From a virus: a stretch of 27,791 nt of DNA. The stretch covers positions 1 to 27,791 of the IMG/VR virus record IMGVR_UViG_3300022918_000230; one strand, given 5' to 3'. Below the pieces are notes generated by a model that saw only the letters and a program-made list of their open reading frames with translations, was not told where the DNA came from and searched no databases. Made by a program: the position numbers and the translations under genes. This document shows positions 1 through 13,199 of this stretch, piece after piece (within the stretch, counting starts at the first letter, position 1; each line of letters starts with the position of its first letter).

Positions 1-912
1 GTGGCAATTCCGGATTTTCAAAGTGTGATGCGCCCGGTGCTGAGCACCGTGCAGAACGGTGCACCGCTACCGCTCAACGAGCTGCGCGAGCGTGTGGCCG
101 ATCAGTTCCAACTGAGCGAGGACGAACGCAAGGAGCGCCTACCCTCCGGTCAGCAGACGATGATCAATAACCGAGTGGGCTGGGCTCGCACCTATTTGAA
201 TAAGGCTGGACTGCTGTGCATTCCGGCCAAAGGAATGGTGCAAATCACTCCGCGTGGCCTTGATGCCTTGGCCAATGGTCCGCCGCGCATCACGGTGAGC
301 TGGTTGAAACAGTTTCCCGAATTTGCGGACTTCCATACGGCCAAGCCGCAATCAGTTGACGCTCCCGCCGTGCTGAACGTTGGTATTGCCGAAACCACGC
401 CAGACGAGCAGTTGGTCGAGGCGCATCAGGCGCTGATGCAGTCCTTGGCAGATGAGCTGCTAACGCAAGTCCGGGTAGCCACCCCCGGCTTCTTTGAGCA
501 GTTGGTAGTCGATTTGATGATCGCCATGGGGTACGGAGGTTCGCGTAAGGAGGCAGGCAAGGCGACCCAAGCGACCAATGATGACGGTATCGACGGCATC
601 ATCAAAGAAGACAAGCTCGGCCTCGACGTGATCTATCTCCAGGCCAAGCGCTGGACCAACACGGTGCATCGTCCGGAGATCGACAAGTTTATCGGCGCAC
701 TGACTCGCCAGCGTGCGCGAAAGGGCGTGTTCATCACCACCTCGGAGTTCTCCGATGGTGCTCGCACTGCAGCGCTGGGGCTGGATATCAAAGTAGTATT
801 GATCGACGGTGTTGAACTGGCTCGGTTGATGGTGGAGAACAACCTGGGTGTGAGCGTTAAGCAGGTGTATGAAGTGAAACAGCTGGACAGTGATTACTTC
901 GCTGAAGGCTGA
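1..912 (+). CDS. mrr: Mrr-type restriction endonuclease
   Basis: The 303-aa product has the two-domain layout of Mrr-family type IV restriction enzymes, which cut modified DNA in the cytoplasm. Residues 1-100 resemble the Mrr winged-helix N-terminal domain. Residues 150-285 look like the Mrr catalytic domain, with FFEQLVVDLMIAMGYGG (164-180), D-G-I-D (195-198) and Q-A-K (214-216), the PD-(D/E)XK-type active site. The start is GTG at base 1, so upstream signals cannot be checked. No methylase lies in view, as expected for a modification-dependent enzyme. It lies on the host side of the putative attL, so it is probably chromosomal or part of a neighbouring island. Family call is confident; substrate is unknown. 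Confidence 0.9.
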   Translation: MAIPDFQSVMRPVLSTVQNGAPLPLNELRERVADQFQLSEDERKERLPSGQQTMINNRVGWARTYLNKAGLLCIPAKGMVQITPRGLDALANGPPRITVSWLKQFPEFADFHTAKPQSVDAPAVLNVGIAETTPDEQLVEAHQALMQSLADELLTQVRVATPGFFEQLVVDLMIAMGYGGSRKEAGKATQATNDDGIDGIIKEDKLGLDVIYLQAKRWTNTVHRPEIDKFIGALTRQRARKGVFITTSEFSDGARTAALGLDIKVVLIDGVELARLMVENNLGVSVKQVYEVKQLDSDYFAEG

Positions 913-1215: not shown

Positions 1216-1250
1216 AAAAAAAGCACCTGCTCAACGCGAGGTGCTTTTTT
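1216..1250. terminator. Bidirectional intrinsic terminator, probably of ssrA
   Basis: A perfect stem AAGCACCT (1221-1228) / AGGTGCTT (1239-1246) with a 10-base loop is flanked by A-runs on one side and T-runs on the other, so it can stop transcription in both directions. It lies 14 bases beyond the CCA end of the tmRNA-like fragment on the minus strand, as expected for the natural ssrA terminator left on the host side after integration. Confidence 0.8.
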
Positions 1251-1295: not shown

Positions 1296-1346
1296 AACCC
1301 TTATAAGCCGTGGCTTTTAGCGGTAGGGCTGCCATTTTGCTGTCAT

Positions 1347-2336
1347 TTACGCGTCATGAAAAATATCTTGAGCCTTGCCGGTCGCCACGTAGTCCGCCAA
1401 ACCCTGAAGCCGACGGTAGTAGGCAAGGACGATTTTTATAGCAGACAGCGGATCCCCGCTGGCGAGCTCGAGAATGTGTGAAGCGCTGTCGTCTAATCCG
1501 AACGCCTTGCACGTATCCTCCAGTAATTCGACAAGCTCGGTGATGTCTTCGTCTGACAGATCAATGTCGGTATCTGATTTGCTTAGCCAGCCCAAATTTT
1601 GGAGATGGCCATAAGCTTTTTTGTAAGCCTCTTGAGCAGGACTATCGTCATCATTAATCCCGTTCACTAACTCTCGTATGGAGTCGGCAACGTCACCGTT
1701 CATATAGAACTTAATTTCGCCTGGAGACGCGTAATCAATTTTTCTGATAGCAGCTCTATCTTCGTTTGGAATGTTTTTATAAAGCTCTTTGAAAAAATTT
1801 ACTGAGCTAAAGCCGCCTCTCCAAGGATGTTTATGGAACAAAGAGTTGATCTTGTTTGTGGCGGCTTGGCCCGTTGCACCAAGAAGCGCAAATCCAAGGG
1901 AATAACAATCTTGTACCAGATCAGAAAATTTCCTTAAATCGCTTATTTCCCACTGACCATCGATGTCTACAACTTTGAAATCACTGTTCAAGCTTTCCTC
2001 AGCATGCCCTGGTATAAACATGCCAGGTTCTGGCAACGCATCGTGCGGGAGGGTTTCTGTGCTTTTCGTTTTAAACTCCTCGCCTACAGTGCCCCACACC
2101 TCTCCGAGCTCATACTTGCCCTTGTGAAGCTTAGTGACAGCATAATGCACGTCAATTTTCTCGGCATATAGCTGCTTGAGATGCTCAGTCTTTATTCTTG
2201 AAAAATAAAACTTGAATGATGTTTCACCATCATCGTAGTTAACACCTAAATACTTATCGCCGTTTTTTGCCTTCGCGAGCGCGATCAGCGGAACATCATA
2301 GCTAAGTAATATTTTCTCTACCGTTAGCTTAGCCAT
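1347..2336 (-). CDS. Accessory protein between int and attL, DUF6575-like (tentative)
   Basis: The 329-aa product starts MAKLTVEKILLSYDVPLIAL. The N-terminal 100 residues look like a small alpha/beta domain; the C-terminal half (about 215-320) is helical and acidic. The opening resembles what I remember as DUF6575, but this is recall without alignment and no function is known to me. The start at 2336 overlaps the upstream gene by 8 bases, so the two are probably translated together from the promoter at 2765-2793. The gene is clearly more AT-rich than the integrase beside it, a sign of separate acquisition. The location between integrase and att is a usual site for lysogenic conversion or phage-defence genes. 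Function is inferred only from place. Confidence 0.7.
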   Translation of the reverse strand: MAKLTVEKILLSYDVPLIALAKAKNGDKYLGVNYDDGETSFKFYFSRIKTEHLKQLYAEKIDVHYAVTKLHKGKYELGEVWGTVGEEFKTKSTETLPHDALPEPGMFIPGHAEESLNSDFKVVDIDGQWEISDLRKFSDLVQDCYSLGFALLGATGQAATNKINSLFHKHPWRGGFSSVNFFKELYKNIPNEDRAAIRKIDYASPGEIKFYMNGDVADSIRELVNGINDDDSPAQEAYKKAYGHLQNLGWLSKSDTDIDLSDEDITELVELLEDTCKAFGLDDSASHILELASGDPLSAIKIVLAYYRRLQGLADYVATGKAQDIFHDA

Positions 2337-2727
2337 TGAGAGCTTCCACCTTTCCAGCAATCGCTGTTGGGTCGACCGACTTATACGGCCACCAGTTCAC
2401 ATGCGTGGGTTGGTCCTTGTGCCACACTCCGTAGTCGTTACTGAACGGTACCTCAACGGCATGAGTGAACTTCATCTTAGTCATTCGCGGGCTTTTTGCA
2501 GCGGCACGACAGGCGGCTAGCGAAGTCATCAGCGAAACAGATCTTGCTGAACACTCATCCGGATATTTATGATTGGACGAGCGTTTCCGCTGAGAGTCGA
2601 AATCATTGGCGGTATGGTTGCCAGCCCTCAACAGCCTCCAGAGCGTAGGCTCGGTCGGAGCCTTTACATCCGCAGGGGGGCAACTGGTTGGTAGTGGCTC
2701 GAGGAAATCAAATCCATTTGTCGACAT
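2329..2727 (-). CDS. Unknown protein, first gene of the int-attL cassette
   Basis: The 132-aa product begins MSTNGFDFLEPLPTS. I do not recognise a domain. Visible traits are a proline-rich N-terminus, a TLWRLLRAG segment, a basic stretch DSQRKRSSNHKYP near residue 45, two cysteines, and a Trp-rich C-terminal part (HVNWWPYKSVDP). No signal peptide or membrane segment is evident. I chose the ATG at 2727 because an upstream in-frame ATG at 2766 would lie before the predicted transcription start near 2758. The 8-base overlap with the following gene suggests a coupled pair. Confidence 0.65.
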   Translation of the reverse strand: MSTNGFDFLEPLPTSCPPADVKAPTEPTLWRLLRAGNHTANDFDSQRKRSSNHKYPDECSARSVSLMTSLAACRAAAKSPRMTKMKFTHAVEVPFSNDYGVWHKDQPTHVNWWPYKSVDPTAIAGKVEALNG

Positions 2728-2764
2728 GAAGCAATATCCAATGGTGGCGTTGTACGTGGCGCGC

Positions 2765-2793
2765 ATTCTCGATTACGACATGCAATGCGTCAA
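2765..2793 (-). promoter_or_regulatory. Sigma-70 promoter of the int-attL cassette
   Basis: On the minus strand a -35 box TTGACG (2788-2793) is followed by a 17-base spacer and a -10 box GAGAAT (2765-2770), 5/6 and 4/6 matches to consensus. The predicted start is near 2758, about 30 bases before the ATG at 2727. This would let the cassette be expressed in the lysogen independently of PL. Confidence 0.6.
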
Positions 2794-2811
2794 AGTTTTA
2801 ATTTTGACGCA
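2786..2811. promoter_or_regulatory. Palindrome over the cassette -35 and the int stop codon
   Basis: GCGTCAAA (2787-2794) and TTTGACGC (2803-2810) form a perfect inverted repeat with an 8-base AT-rich centre, extended to 9 bp by T2786/A2811. It covers the -35 box of the cassette promoter and the integrase stop codon. No T-run follows, so it is more like a protein-binding site than an intrinsic terminator. The binding protein is unknown. Confidence 0.45.
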
Positions 2812-3995
2812 AGGGTATCTTCTTGTTGTTTATCGGTTTTTATATCTCCGCGCTGTAAAAATGCCAGCTCTGCTCTTTGTCCAGCACCAATATCTGCTGC
2901 GGGCATCCATCGTCCATAGACTCGCGCAATCATCGTCCAGTCGGTATGCCCCATCTGTTTGGCTACCCACATAGGGTGCTCACCGGCGGAAAGCATCATC
3001 GAAGCGTAGGTGTGTCGGGTCTGGTAAGGCCGCCGATACCTGACGCCTGCTTTCTTCATGGCAGGTACCCACATAGTTTTGCGTATTGGCCCGTCGCCTG
3101 CCCATCGCTCCAACGTCCTGGGATTTTGAAATACTTCAGCGTCTGCCAGGAACGTATGAGCCTTCTGGGCCGTTAATGCTTCCATGGCTGGCCTGAGCAG
3201 CTTCACGCTTCGCCGGCCCGCGGATGTCTTTGTAGTCTCGGCCGTACCCTTCGCTGCCTGGGTCATAGCGCGGGTCACCATTACCTCTTCACGTAGCCAG
3301 TCGATATCGCCCCAGTCCAGGGCGACCAGCTCGCTGGTTCGCAGGCCAGTCCAAAGGGCGAATTGCATCATGTTGCGCGCCTGGCCGGTAAGGGCGCCCA
3401 GCACGGCCTGTTGTTCCTCCGGGCTAAAAGGGTCTACGTCGTCTTCCTTGGGAGGCGCTTCTTTCCGGGTATAGGTCCAGCCGGCCATAGGGTTAAGGTC
3501 GATTAATTCCTCTTCCGCAGCGTCATTCAGCGCAGAGCGAAGACAGCTCTGAATATTGCTAAGCGTTTTATTGCTCACTAGCAGCGTATCGAGCCAGTCA
3601 CGGATAGCCTTTCGCTTGAGATCGACCACCATGGTTTCGCCCAGGGCAGGGATGAGACGCAGCTCCACGAGCTTTCGATAGCCATCGAACGTGCTGCTAG
3701 CCACATGCTTGCGTTTGGCAGCCAGCCACCTGGTTAGGAAACCGTGCACAGTTTCCCGCGACGCCTCCGGTGCGAACTTATCTGCCCGGGCAGAGCCAGG
3801 GAACGTAACGGCATAATCGAACGTGCCAATGGATATCGCGTGCTCGATCGCCGCCTTGTGCTGTTCGGCCTTCTTTAGATTAGTGGGGGAGGGCTTGAGT
3901 GTGATGCGCTCGCGGCACCGGACGCCCCGATACATGAACGTGATTTCGATACTCGTATCGGAGACCGCCCGAACTCCCCGCCCGCCTCTACCCAT
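2790..3995 (-). CDS. int: Tyrosine-family phage integrase
   Basis: The 401-aa protein catalyses site-specific recombination between phage and host att sites. Residues 1-65 resemble a DUF3596-type arm-site-binding domain (GVRAVSDTSIEI, YRGVRCRERI), 80-175 a SAM-like core-binding domain, and 190-365 the catalytic domain. The active-site set is R219 (TGLRTSE), K256 (TKTSAGRR), R327 with Y324 in place of the usual His of HxxR, H350 (MGHTDW) and Y360 (VYGRW). The start at 3995 fits the conserved MGRGGRG opening of this family and makes the gene overlap xis by 121 bases. It lies about 1.5 kb from the putative attL, separated by the accessory cassette. Confidence 0.95.
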   Translation of the reverse strand: MGRGGRGVRAVSDTSIEITFMYRGVRCRERITLKPSPTNLKKAEQHKAAIEHAISIGTFDYAVTFPGSARADKFAPEASRETVHGFLTRWLAAKRKHVASSTFDGYRKLVELRLIPALGETMVVDLKRKAIRDWLDTLLVSNKTLSNIQSCLRSALNDAAEEELIDLNPMAGWTYTRKEAPPKEDDVDPFSPEEQQAVLGALTGQARNMMQFALWTGLRTSELVALDWGDIDWLREEVMVTRAMTQAAKGTAETTKTSAGRRSVKLLRPAMEALTAQKAHTFLADAEVFQNPRTLERWAGDGPIRKTMWVPAMKKAGVRYRRPYQTRHTYASMMLSAGEHPMWVAKQMGHTDWTMIARVYGRWMPAADIGAGQRAELAFLQRGDIKTDKQQEDTLASKLKL

Positions 3996-4469: not shown

Positions 4470-4658
4470 TTAACAGACCTCGGGACGCTGGCGTGGGTTG
4501 GCCAGTTTGCGAAGGTGGATTTCTTCGCGGTCTACCGGCACACCAACGGGTGCTGAGACGCCAATGCGAACCTGCATACCCTGAACGCCCAACACGGTCA
4601 CGGTGATGTCGTCGTTGATGCGGATGGTTTCGCCTACACGGCGAGTCAAAATGAGCAT
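4470..4658 (-). CDS. csrA: Phage-borne CsrA/RsmA-type translational regulator
   Basis: The 62-aa product [17 protein letters not shown]... matches the CsrA family along its length. CsrA dimers bind GGA motifs in mRNA leaders and alter translation or stability. The RNA-contacting residues L4, R6, R7 and R44 (PVDREEIHL) are all present, as is the [14 protein letters not shown] core. The start at 4658 is fixed by AAGGAG five bases upstream. The tail after residue 52 (NPRQRPEVC) differs from host RsmA. It is the second gene of the PL operon, so it should be made early after infection or induction, possibly acting on phage leaders or host Rsm targets. Confidence 0.92.
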
Positions 4659-4797
4659 ATGAACTCCTTGTCTACTTTCTTGAGGGCGAACAAAGGCCCG
4701 CCACTTTGTTGGCAATCGCAAAAATTTGAATTGGTTATCGCGTCAGATCGAGCCTGAACACTGGGCTACCCAACTGCACGGATGGGTACACCGCTGC

Positions 4798-10481: not shown

Positions 10482-11851
10482 GTCGCGACCTGTTCAACAT
10501 CGAGGCCGAGCACGGCCTGCTGGGCGCAATCTTCATCGAGCCGACGCTGCTTGACGAGATATCCAGCAAGGTGGATATCTCCGACTTCTACGAAATCGAG
10601 AATGCCGCGCTGTTCAGGGCCATCCTGGACTGTCACGCCGCTGGCGACCCGGTCGATGTCGTGATGGTTAGCGAGCACCACCAGTACATGCCTGATGGCA
10701 GTAGCATGCTGGCGTATGCCGCACAGGTCCACGCAGGCGCTCAGGGAACCTCGAGCTGGAAGACATACGCACGGGTTATCCGCGAGCGTGCCGTTCTGCG
10801 CAAGGTTGTCGAGACGGCGACGTCGATCAGCCAGTCAGCCAATGATGATTTGCCGGTGGCGGAGATCATCGCGCGCGGGCAGCAGGCAATGGCAGACTTG
10901 CGCGACCTCGACGACGGCGAGCCTGATTACCATCAGGTGAAAGACATCCTGCCCTGGGTGGTAGATACGATCGATGCCAAGTTCAATAAGACGGCACCCA
11001 AGGGTCTGGGCACTGGCCTGCCCGATCTGGACAAGATGATCAGAGGGCTACGCCCTGGGAACATGGTGGTCGTCGCTGGCCTTCCAGCCTCCGGCAAAAC
11101 CATCCTCGGCGTGCAGATTGCCCAGCACGTCACCACTCGTTTGGGCGGTTCCGGTCTGGTGTTCTCGCTGGAGATGACCAAGGAAGAGTTGGTGACGCGC
11201 AACATCGCGTCACTTGGCTCCGTGGATCTGACCCGGCTGGACGAGGGCGAGAGCATTCAGGACGAGGACTGGCCGCGCATCACCAGTGCCGTCAACCAGC
11301 TCAACAGCGCCCGACTCTATGTGTGCGATCAGGCAGGCATGACCGTTGCCCGTATCCGCTCAATTGCACGCCAGTGCCAACGCCGTGAAGGGTTGGACGT
11401 GATCGTGGTCGACTACATCACCCTGATCAACGGGGAGGGCGGGCACAACCGGACGCTTGAGGTCGGCAAGATTTCCACGGCGCTGAAGAACTTGGCCAAG
11501 GAGCTCAAGGTGCCGGTGATCGTGCTGGCGCAGCTCAACCGCGGGCCAACCAATCGCCCCGATAAGAAACCACGGCCCAGCGACATACGCGACAGCGGCC
11601 AGATCGAGCAGGACGCCGATGTCGTCATCTTGGTGCACCGCGATGGCGACAGCGAAGAGGGCGCCAATGGTGTCACCCAACTTATCGTTGGCAAATGCCG
11701 TCACGGCAAGCCGGGCGATTGTCTTGTCCAGGCCCAAGGGCAATTCGTGCGTTTCGTGCCATTTGGCGGCAAGCCACCCTCAGACGAACAGGTCGAGATG
11801 GGCCGCGTGGTGAAGTTCACTGGCCGCGCCCGGGGCCCAGTCGATGAATGA
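10478..11851 (+). CDS. dnaB: DnaB-type replicative helicase
   Basis: The 457-aa protein has the DnaB N-terminal domain (about 5-105, EAEHGLLGAIFIEPTLLDEI), a linker, and a RecA-like motor domain. Walker A is G201-LPASGK-T208, Walker B is VIVVDYI near 310, and the H4-type segment LAQLNRGP follows near 348. It should form the hexameric ring that unwinds phage DNA 5'->3'. The length matches the family. Having both loader and helicase makes the phage largely independent of host DnaB and DnaC. Confidence 0.93.
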   Translation: MSRDLFNIEAEHGLLGAIFIEPTLLDEISSKVDISDFYEIENAALFRAILDCHAAGDPVDVVMVSEHHQYMPDGSSMLAYAAQVHAGAQGTSSWKTYARVIRERAVLRKVVETATSISQSANDDLPVAEIIARGQQAMADLRDLDDGEPDYHQVKDILPWVVDTIDAKFNKTAPKGLGTGLPDLDKMIRGLRPGNMVVVAGLPASGKTILGVQIAQHVTTRLGGSGLVFSLEMTKEELVTRNIASLGSVDLTRLDEGESIQDEDWPRITSAVNQLNSARLYVCDQAGMTVARIRSIARQCQRREGLDVIVVDYITLINGEGGHNRTLEVGKISTALKNLAKELKVPVIVLAQLNRGPTNRPDKKPRPSDIRDSGQIEQDADVVILVHRDGDSEEGANGVTQLIVGKCRHGKPGDCLVQAQGQFVRFVPFGGKPPSDEQVEMGRVVKFTGRARGPVDE

Positions 11852-13199
11852 CCTGGTGAAAACGCTTACGGTCATCATGACTGACGCCGAAATCCGCCGG
11901 CATGCGGACCGCTCCCATGTCCGTGCTCTGCGCGATGCTCGCCACCCAGCACTGCACTTTCGTTACTCCACCGTCGACCGCGCCCGAGGGTCATGGCATG
12001 TGGTGGTGCGCGGCAAGTGGGGCAAGGCCGGTAACTATCCCGGTATCAACGCCAAGCTGATGCAGTCCACGCTCCCAGCGATCCTCGCGCGCCGCTCGGC
12101 TGATCCCGCTGCGGCCTCGACCACCAGCAGCTGGACGACTGTCGGCGACGTGCTGGCCTGGTACACCGACAGGATGACGCGCGACCGTGGCCTGTCTGCC
12201 AAGCGCAAGGCCAGCGCCCAGTCAGCACTCCGTTGCCACCTGGTGCCAAAGCTTCAGCATGTGGAGTTGGCCAGCCTCAACCGAGCAGCGCTCGACAAGC
12301 TGCTGATGTGGCCGATGCAGGAAAAATATGAGCTGTCGTTTGTGCGTTCGGTCTATGGCGTTCTGGCCGCAGCATTCCGGCAAGCGACACGCCTGGCGCT
12401 CGTGGGAACGAACCCCATGGCCGACCTCAAGTACAGCGACTTTGTCCGGACGCGCATCAAGCCCAAACCCGCGCGGTTGCGGGGCGATGATCTGCCGGCG
12501 CTGCTGGTGGACCTGCAAGAGCGAATTGATCGCGCACCGTTGGAGTCAATGCTGGCGCTGCTGATGCTTTGCCACGGTACTCGCCTCGGGGAAACCCGGC
12601 TGGCCCGCTGGAAAAACGTCAACGTAAAAACGGGTCAATGGTTCATTCCGGCGCCAGATACCAAGACCAAGGCAGAGCACATGCTGCCGCTGACCCGCCA
12701 AGCCTGCGCCCTGATTGAACGTTACCGGGCCATGCAACTGGCGACCGGTTATCAAGGGCCTTTCCTGTTCCCTGGCCGATCTGGTGATGCTATCAGCGCG
12801 ACCAAGGCCAGCACCTTGTTTGCCGGGATGGCTGGGCGTGAATGGTCGAGCCATGACCTGCGCAAGGTCGCCCGCACTGCTTGGGCCGATCTGGGCGTGG
12901 ACTACATGGTGGGCGAGATGCTGCTCAACCATGCGATGAAAGATCTCGACGCCACCTACATCCACACCACCGCCGAAGGGCTGAAACGCCAAGCCTTGGA
13001 ATCGTGGCACGACCACCTCGACAAGCTCGGACTTGCTCCACTGCATAACGGGACATGTGCGGGACGCGAATCGATGACCGAAAGCGAGCAAGCCAATAAA
13101 ACCGTGGCCTGTAGCGACAATCTGCATCCATCCCAAGGGAGGAGGTTAATAGACAAAACGACCGCCAACCAGACCCAGCCAGGAGACGGCAATGAGTAG
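11844..13199 (+). CDS. Second tyrosine recombinase, in the replication operon
   Basis: The 451-aa protein carries a full tyrosine-recombinase active site: R247 (CHGTRLGE), K274 or K276 (DTKTKAEH), H337-x2-R340 (SHDLRKVART), H363 (LLNHAMKD) and Y372 (ATYIHT). The N-terminal 1-85 resembles an arm-binding region, 97-200 a core-binding domain. It overlaps dnaB by 8 bases; an alternative start is Met12 (MTDAEIRRH). The C-terminal 45 residues are a Glu/Asn/Thr-rich tail. It is unrelated in sequence to the integrase at 2790-3995 beyond the active site. Placed after the helicase, it may resolve replication products or serve another site; att function is unproven. Confidence 0.85.
   Translation: MNDLVKTLTVIMTDAEIRRHADRSHVRALRDARHPALHFRYSTVDRARGSWHVVVRGKWGKAGNYPGINAKLMQSTLPAILARRSADPAAASTTSSWTTVGDVLAWYTDRMTRDRGLSAKRKASAQSALRCHLVPKLQHVELASLNRAALDKLLMWPMQEKYELSFVRSVYGVLAAAFRQATRLALVGTNPMADLKYSDFVRTRIKPKPARLRGDDLPALLVDLQERIDRAPLESMLALLMLCHGTRLGETRLARWKNVNVKTGQWFIPAPDTKTKAEHMLPLTRQACALIERYRAMQLATGYQGPFLFPGRSGDAISATKASTLFAGMAGREWSSHDLRKVARTAWADLGVDYMVGEMLLNHAMKDLDATYIHTTAEGLKRQALESWHDHLDKLGLAPLHNGTCAGRESMTESEQANKTVACSDNLHPSQGRRLIDKTTANQTQPGDGNE

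Follow-up and report, generated by a model that had tools for sequence, protein, structure and literature searches.

The closest described counterpart of the locus analyzed here is PD-T4-10, an E. coli system of two overlapping open reading frames that was discovered by functional selection (Vassallo et al. 2022, PMC9519451). The PD-T4-10 B protein is toxic and is neutralized by A, for which no deletion could be obtained; cells deleted for B lose their resistance to T4, the mode of action is abortive infection, and protection has been reported against T-even coliphages (PMC9519451). The system was published without a predicted function for either protein, and DUF6575 was listed among the domains newly tied to defense (PMC9519451).

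Here, we analyzed a 27,791-nt stretch of viral DNA (IMG/VR record IMGVR_UViG_3300022918_000230, hereafter the window), in which two overlapping genes, A and B, occupy the interval between the integrase gene and the att site. Judging from its proteins and their order, this cassette is a divergent PD-T4-10 subfamily, that is, a system of an already known kind, and we consider it highly probable that it is a prophage-borne PD-T4-10-type toxin-antitoxin (TA) module that shields the lysogen against other phages through abortive infection. The cassette shares with PD-T4-10 the overlapping genes in the order antitoxin-toxin, the homology of B over its full length, the homology of A through a chain of intermediates, and the residence in mobile elements. 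It differs in its protein sequences, with about 20–25% identity to the members best matching the PADLOC models, in an A protein that falls outside the PADLOC A model, in its location within a Pseudomonas prophage, namely, the int-att interval, and in that its activity is predicted by homology. The earlier note on this DNA had proposed a coupled two-component anti-phage cassette of unrecognized function. The first part of this proposal is borne out, B being a PD-T4-10_B homologue and A its partner by homology chain, synteny and motif; as for the second, the product of A indeed lacks a direct family match, but the system as a whole can be recognized. What is new is the reading of the toxin as modular, a tentative reading of the antitoxin as ADP-ribosyltransferase (ART)-like, and the view of the int-att interval as a place of TA exchange.

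Organization of the cassette and pairing of the two genes

Gene A (2329..2727, minus strand; protein P0001, 132 aa; PD-T4-10A-like putative antitoxin) and gene B (1347..2336, minus strand; protein P0002, 329 aa; PD-T4-10B putative toxin) are placed directly downstream of a tyrosine integrase gene (2790..3995, minus strand; Pfam Arm-DNA-bind_2, SAM-like and catalytic Phage_integrase domains) and directly before the att core. Both open reading frames are present as the earlier note described them, including the 8-nt overlap between the A stop and the B start (2329..2336, minus strand). In seven close relatives from viral contigs and Pseudomonas genomes (76–92% identity for B and 61–90% for A), A lies directly before B with the identical overlap in every case, and because both proteins and the overlap are conserved in all seven, we regard A and B as real genes. 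The further claim that the genes are more AT-rich than the integrase gene clearly applies to B (45.1% GC compared with 56.7%) but only slightly to A (53.1%). The GC content of the window is 56.3%, and that of the cassette, 47.4%, is the fifth lowest among 265 windows of equal size.

The cassette has been suggested to possess its own promoter. The location given was right: a predicted promoter occupies 2765..2793 on the minus strand, with a -35 box TTGACG (2793-2788), a 17-nt spacer and a -10 box GAGAAT (2770-2765). Taken alone, this match is at chance level (one promoter-like match found against 2.7 expected in shuffles), but both boxes are present upstream of the cassette in 7/7 close relatives, in differing surroundings, as TTGAC(G/T) and (A/G)AAT separated by 16–18 bases. 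A near-perfect 12-bp inverted repeat at 2786..2811 covers the -35 box and the end of the integrase gene, is kept in part among the relatives, and is a possible autoregulatory operator.

Elsewhere in the window, we noted a phage-encoded CsrA homologue (4470-4664, minus strand; E = 2e-20) and a second tyrosine recombinase located in the replication region, far from att (11844-13199, plus strand; Pfam Phage_integrase, E = 2e-18). A CsrA-like ORF also lies upstream of the cassette in one of the relatives (L003).

The association of the two genes extends well beyond the close relatives. A precedes full-length B in all 17 loci with upstream DNA, distant ones included, a count that leaves out two contigs ending at B (L050 and L052), so the pair that had been expected to recur elsewhere does so. 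Among 398 Pseudomonadota genomes, the A profile matched all six that encode a full-length B, and it matched none of the three that encode only the effector domain; A and B co-diverge across 19–92% identity. One could still suppose that the overlap is accidental and that the two genes are cargo without any relation to each other, the sole argument for this being the missing direct family match of A; this pairing, the identical overlap in the close relatives and the co-divergence all speak against it, and given these co-occurrence data, we consider this reading refuted in practice, leaving it a negligible probability.

The pair adjoins an integrase gene in the window and in two relatives (L013 and L014), and a third (L004) retains an integrase fragment. 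Other settings include the vicinity of a phage portal gene (L002), of phage tail genes (L005) and of a retron-type reverse transcriptase (RT) (L012). The B family is rare, given that B-family matches were detected in six of 399 Pseudomonas genomes. With B as the query, tblastn found no relative in 50,697 phage records and, among plasmids, only two relatives, both of the effector domain.

B as a PD-T4-10_B protein with a predicted modular architecture

P0002 matches the PADLOC profile PD-T4-10_B (PDLC04024) with an E-value of 6.3e-43 over residues 3-322 of 329, that is, at full length, and on the strength of this profile match we assign it to the PD-T4-10_B family. Neither P0001 nor P0002 had a usable match in Pfam, PHROGs or NCBIfam. 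B consists of a DUF6575-like N-domain (residues ~1-106) and an effector domain (~121-326) with the motifs W172-xGGxS, YASPG (202-206) and R308-R309, and comparison of the relatives indicates that the two domains behave as separate units.

The effector domain also exists alone, in proteins of 200–240 aa, many of them phage-borne, and none of the effector-only proteins examined is directly preceded by an A gene. A hydrophobic stretch following YASPG is usual in these stand-alone proteins and absent from P0002. Genes for a DUF4917/SIR2-like PDC-S21 protein and for a Drt8-type RT are among their neighbors. In two phages (L056, 3001-4668, and L058), a lone PD-T4-10B effector gene lies directly before the DUF4917/SIR2-like PDC-S21 gene, and these two genes are maybe a separate two-gene system.

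The N-domain, too, occurs in other combinations. Four A homologues (in L034, L041, L042 and L067) precede long proteins that share with B the N-domain only (E = 6e-6 to 6e-5 in a small-scale search), and two of these long proteins end in an M78/IrrE peptidase. P0002 has no match to Pfam DUF6575 (PF20215), and its likeness to this family comes by two other routes: the N-domain of the B protein of L020, which matches PD-T4-10_B at 1e-130, matches DUF6575 (E = 2.4e-5, under the cut-off), and the top match of the P0002 structure model in BFVD, a library of viral structures, is a DUF6575 phage protein (E = 1.8e-8). DUF6575 matches were also found in L034, L041 and L044. DUF6575 proteins differ from B in that the domain is also part of larger proteins with other C-termini, such as the M78 peptidase, which likewise follow an A gene. 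A further candidate, with A-like and N-like pieces in one frame (L040), was set aside as a truncated remnant.

Thus, as far as these comparisons reach, it appears to be the N-domain, not the effector, that always accompanies A, and because of this constant association we infer that A acts through the DUF6575-like N-domain of B. The same comparisons suggest that B combines this domain with an exchangeable effector, that is, a toxin built from swappable parts.

The structure model of B (mean pLDDT 84.8, pTM 0.65) did not match any solved structure, with a best Foldseek E-value of 0.026 at a TM-score of 0.15 and a best VIA Z-score of 4.4, and PDB sequence profile searches with A and with B returned chance matches only. 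Because no solved structure matches B, we put forward no enzyme class for it.

A as a divergent PD-T4-10A protein with a possible ADP-ribosyltransferase fold

P0001 does not match the PADLOC PD-T4-10_A models even at an E-value of 10. Genes at the same position in other loci do, with E-values that grade from 2.6e-50 (L020) and 1.7e-32 (L026) through 2e-5 (L031), 6e-4 (L032) and 7e-4 (L030) to 0.0018 (L025), and P0001 is 45% identical to the A protein of L025. In hhalign comparisons, the P0001 group matched the L030-L033 group with an E-value of 7e-14 and the L020/L026 group with 7e-4, and the latter two groups matched each other at 1.4e-4. On the strength of this chain of intermediates, together with synteny and motifs, and not of a direct match, we classify A as a divergent PD-T4-10A.

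The model of A has a pLDDT of 76 and a pTM of 0.73, with two of five models in agreement and three of low confidence. The top eight Foldseek matches were all ART-family entries, with E-values of 0.25–1.9, none significant alone; among the 50 VIA matches listed, all appear, when sorted by name, to be ART or ART-like. The leading VIA match is Tpt1/KptA (the ART lobe of tRNA 2'-phosphotransferase), with a Z-score of 8.0 over 86–93 residues at 2.8–3.1 Å, a Z-score of 8 falling within the range quoted for models without true relatives. Four residues, R31, F43, S65 and H109, are invariant in 21/21 A homologues, down to about 20% identity, and R31, S65 and H109 are located on predicted strands 1, 2 and 5, respectively. 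His109 lies on predicted strand 5, where the catalytic glutamate of an R-S-E or H-Y-E triad would be expected, and this usual glutamate was not found in A. On the basis of these models, an ART fold for A seems somewhat favored, and ART activity is doubtful.

Antitoxins that are enzymes are not without precedent: in Type VII TA systems, the antitoxin is an enzyme that modifies the toxin, and the same logic would apply here if A were enzymatic. To our knowledge, no ART antitoxin has been described. Within the abortive-infection explanation favored here, A could be an active ART-fold enzyme that silences B by modifying the DUF6575-like domain, or that senses NAD or ADP-ribose, such that a phage-caused change frees B. 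The agreement among the Foldseek and VIA matches and the invariance of R31, S65 and H109 are what would be expected under such a scheme. Conversely, the Foldseek E-values of 0.25 or worse, a Z-score no higher than that of models lacking true relatives, the missing glutamate, the disagreement among the five models, and a profile-profile comparison of A with the RES and KptA families that detected nothing (E = 0.15–0.5) all weigh against it, and we rate the scheme as unlikely.

The att site and the int-att interval

The cassette lies between the integrase gene (2790-3995) and an att core (1264..about 1295, minus strand) that corresponds to the 3' end of a tmRNA gene; the same layout is seen in L013 and L014. 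In two host genomes carrying relatives (G006 and G007), a complete tmRNA gene has the matching 26-mer as its 3' end, and the 26-mer recurs beside the cassette. Directly after gene B, at 1328..1345 on the minus strand, is an arm-type-like repeat, TGACAGC-NNN-ATGGCAGC, which resembles an integrase arm site. Across the core from it (1173-1190) lies a second copy that differs by one mismatch, and a perfect, terminator-like 12-bp inverted repeat, AAAAAAGCACCT/AGGTGCTTTTTT, lies beside the core (1217..1250). A sequence like the arm-type repeat also follows B in L013, L014 and L012 and, in a more degraded form, in L004.

The junction had been described as attL, an assignment that is not certain. The segment 1173-1316 spans the core and matches twelve Pseudomonas phage records to either side of it, with the far side, 1173-1263, matching P. 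aeruginosa phages, and because of these matches the junction looks more like attP, or like the boundary between tandem prophages, than like a simple attL. Positions 1-1172 were considered as host flank, an interpretation that was dropped in view of the phage matches beyond the core; this segment, with the Mrr gene that it carries, need not be host DNA. The gene in question, which the core separates from the cassette, encodes an Mrr-type restriction enzyme (1-912, plus strand; PADLOC type IV mREase, E = 9e-83) and is possibly a second phage-borne defense gene.

Related Pseudomonas phages carry different genes in the same interval. Phage Hali encodes an MqsR/MqsA-like pair and a third gene (L078, 4238-5564), and phage CF55b encodes a Panacea antitoxin with an NsnC-like partner (L072, 4187-5053), a layout similar to which is found in CF60a, CF67a, CF79a, BR133a and BR201a; in JBD68, the int-att interval contains two genes of no assigned function. 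The MqsRA and Panacea modules resemble the cassette in place, from the integrase to a tmRNA-type att site, in orientation, and in TA function (here by homology), but their proteins belong to families unrelated to A and B. We infer that the int-att interval is an exchange site for TA modules, and because several different TA modules occupy it in related Pseudomonas phages, it is a practical place to seek new anti-phage systems.

That ordinary TA pairs occupy this interval in other phages of the same att family, together with the TA organization of the cassette and its position at the prophage edge, would also fit a plain addiction module that stabilizes the prophage, with phage defense being incidental. 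Against this stand the strong anti-phage defense conferred by the characterized homologue (PMC9519451), the retron-type RT near the cassette of the close relative L012, and the Drt8-type RT and PDC-S21 defense candidate near the lone effector domain. We regard the addiction module as the less plausible account, improbable though not far-fetched, and a module that defends the lysogen as the preferred one.

Proposed mode of action and implications

This analysis establishes the pairing of A and B and their order, assigns B to its family, and places the pair behind a shared predicted promoter and next to att; by analogy, the Pseudomonas pair would act like its E. coli homologue. In the resting lysogen, A and B would be produced from their own promoter and overlapping genes, with A keeping B silent, presumably through the DUF6575-like N-domain to which the domain comparison points. 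A superinfecting phage would disturb A or the A:B balance and thereby release B, which would then halt the cell or the phage cycle.

A more far-reaching and rather improbable version, to which we give slightly less credence than to the active-enzyme scheme, is that A has an ART fold with an unusual R-S-H active site and neutralizes toxins via the shared DUF6575-like domain, behind which phages and bacteria swap killing domains, namely, the PD-T4-10B effector, the M78 metallopeptidase and others. If true, this would amount to a modular enzyme-antitoxin immune system with one common lock. For the PD-T4-10 family, the present comparisons suggest that the toxin is split into a lock domain, DUF6575-like and always found with A, and an exchangeable effector that also exists alone in phages near other defense genes, and they offer the first testable idea of the nature of the PD-T4-10 antitoxin.
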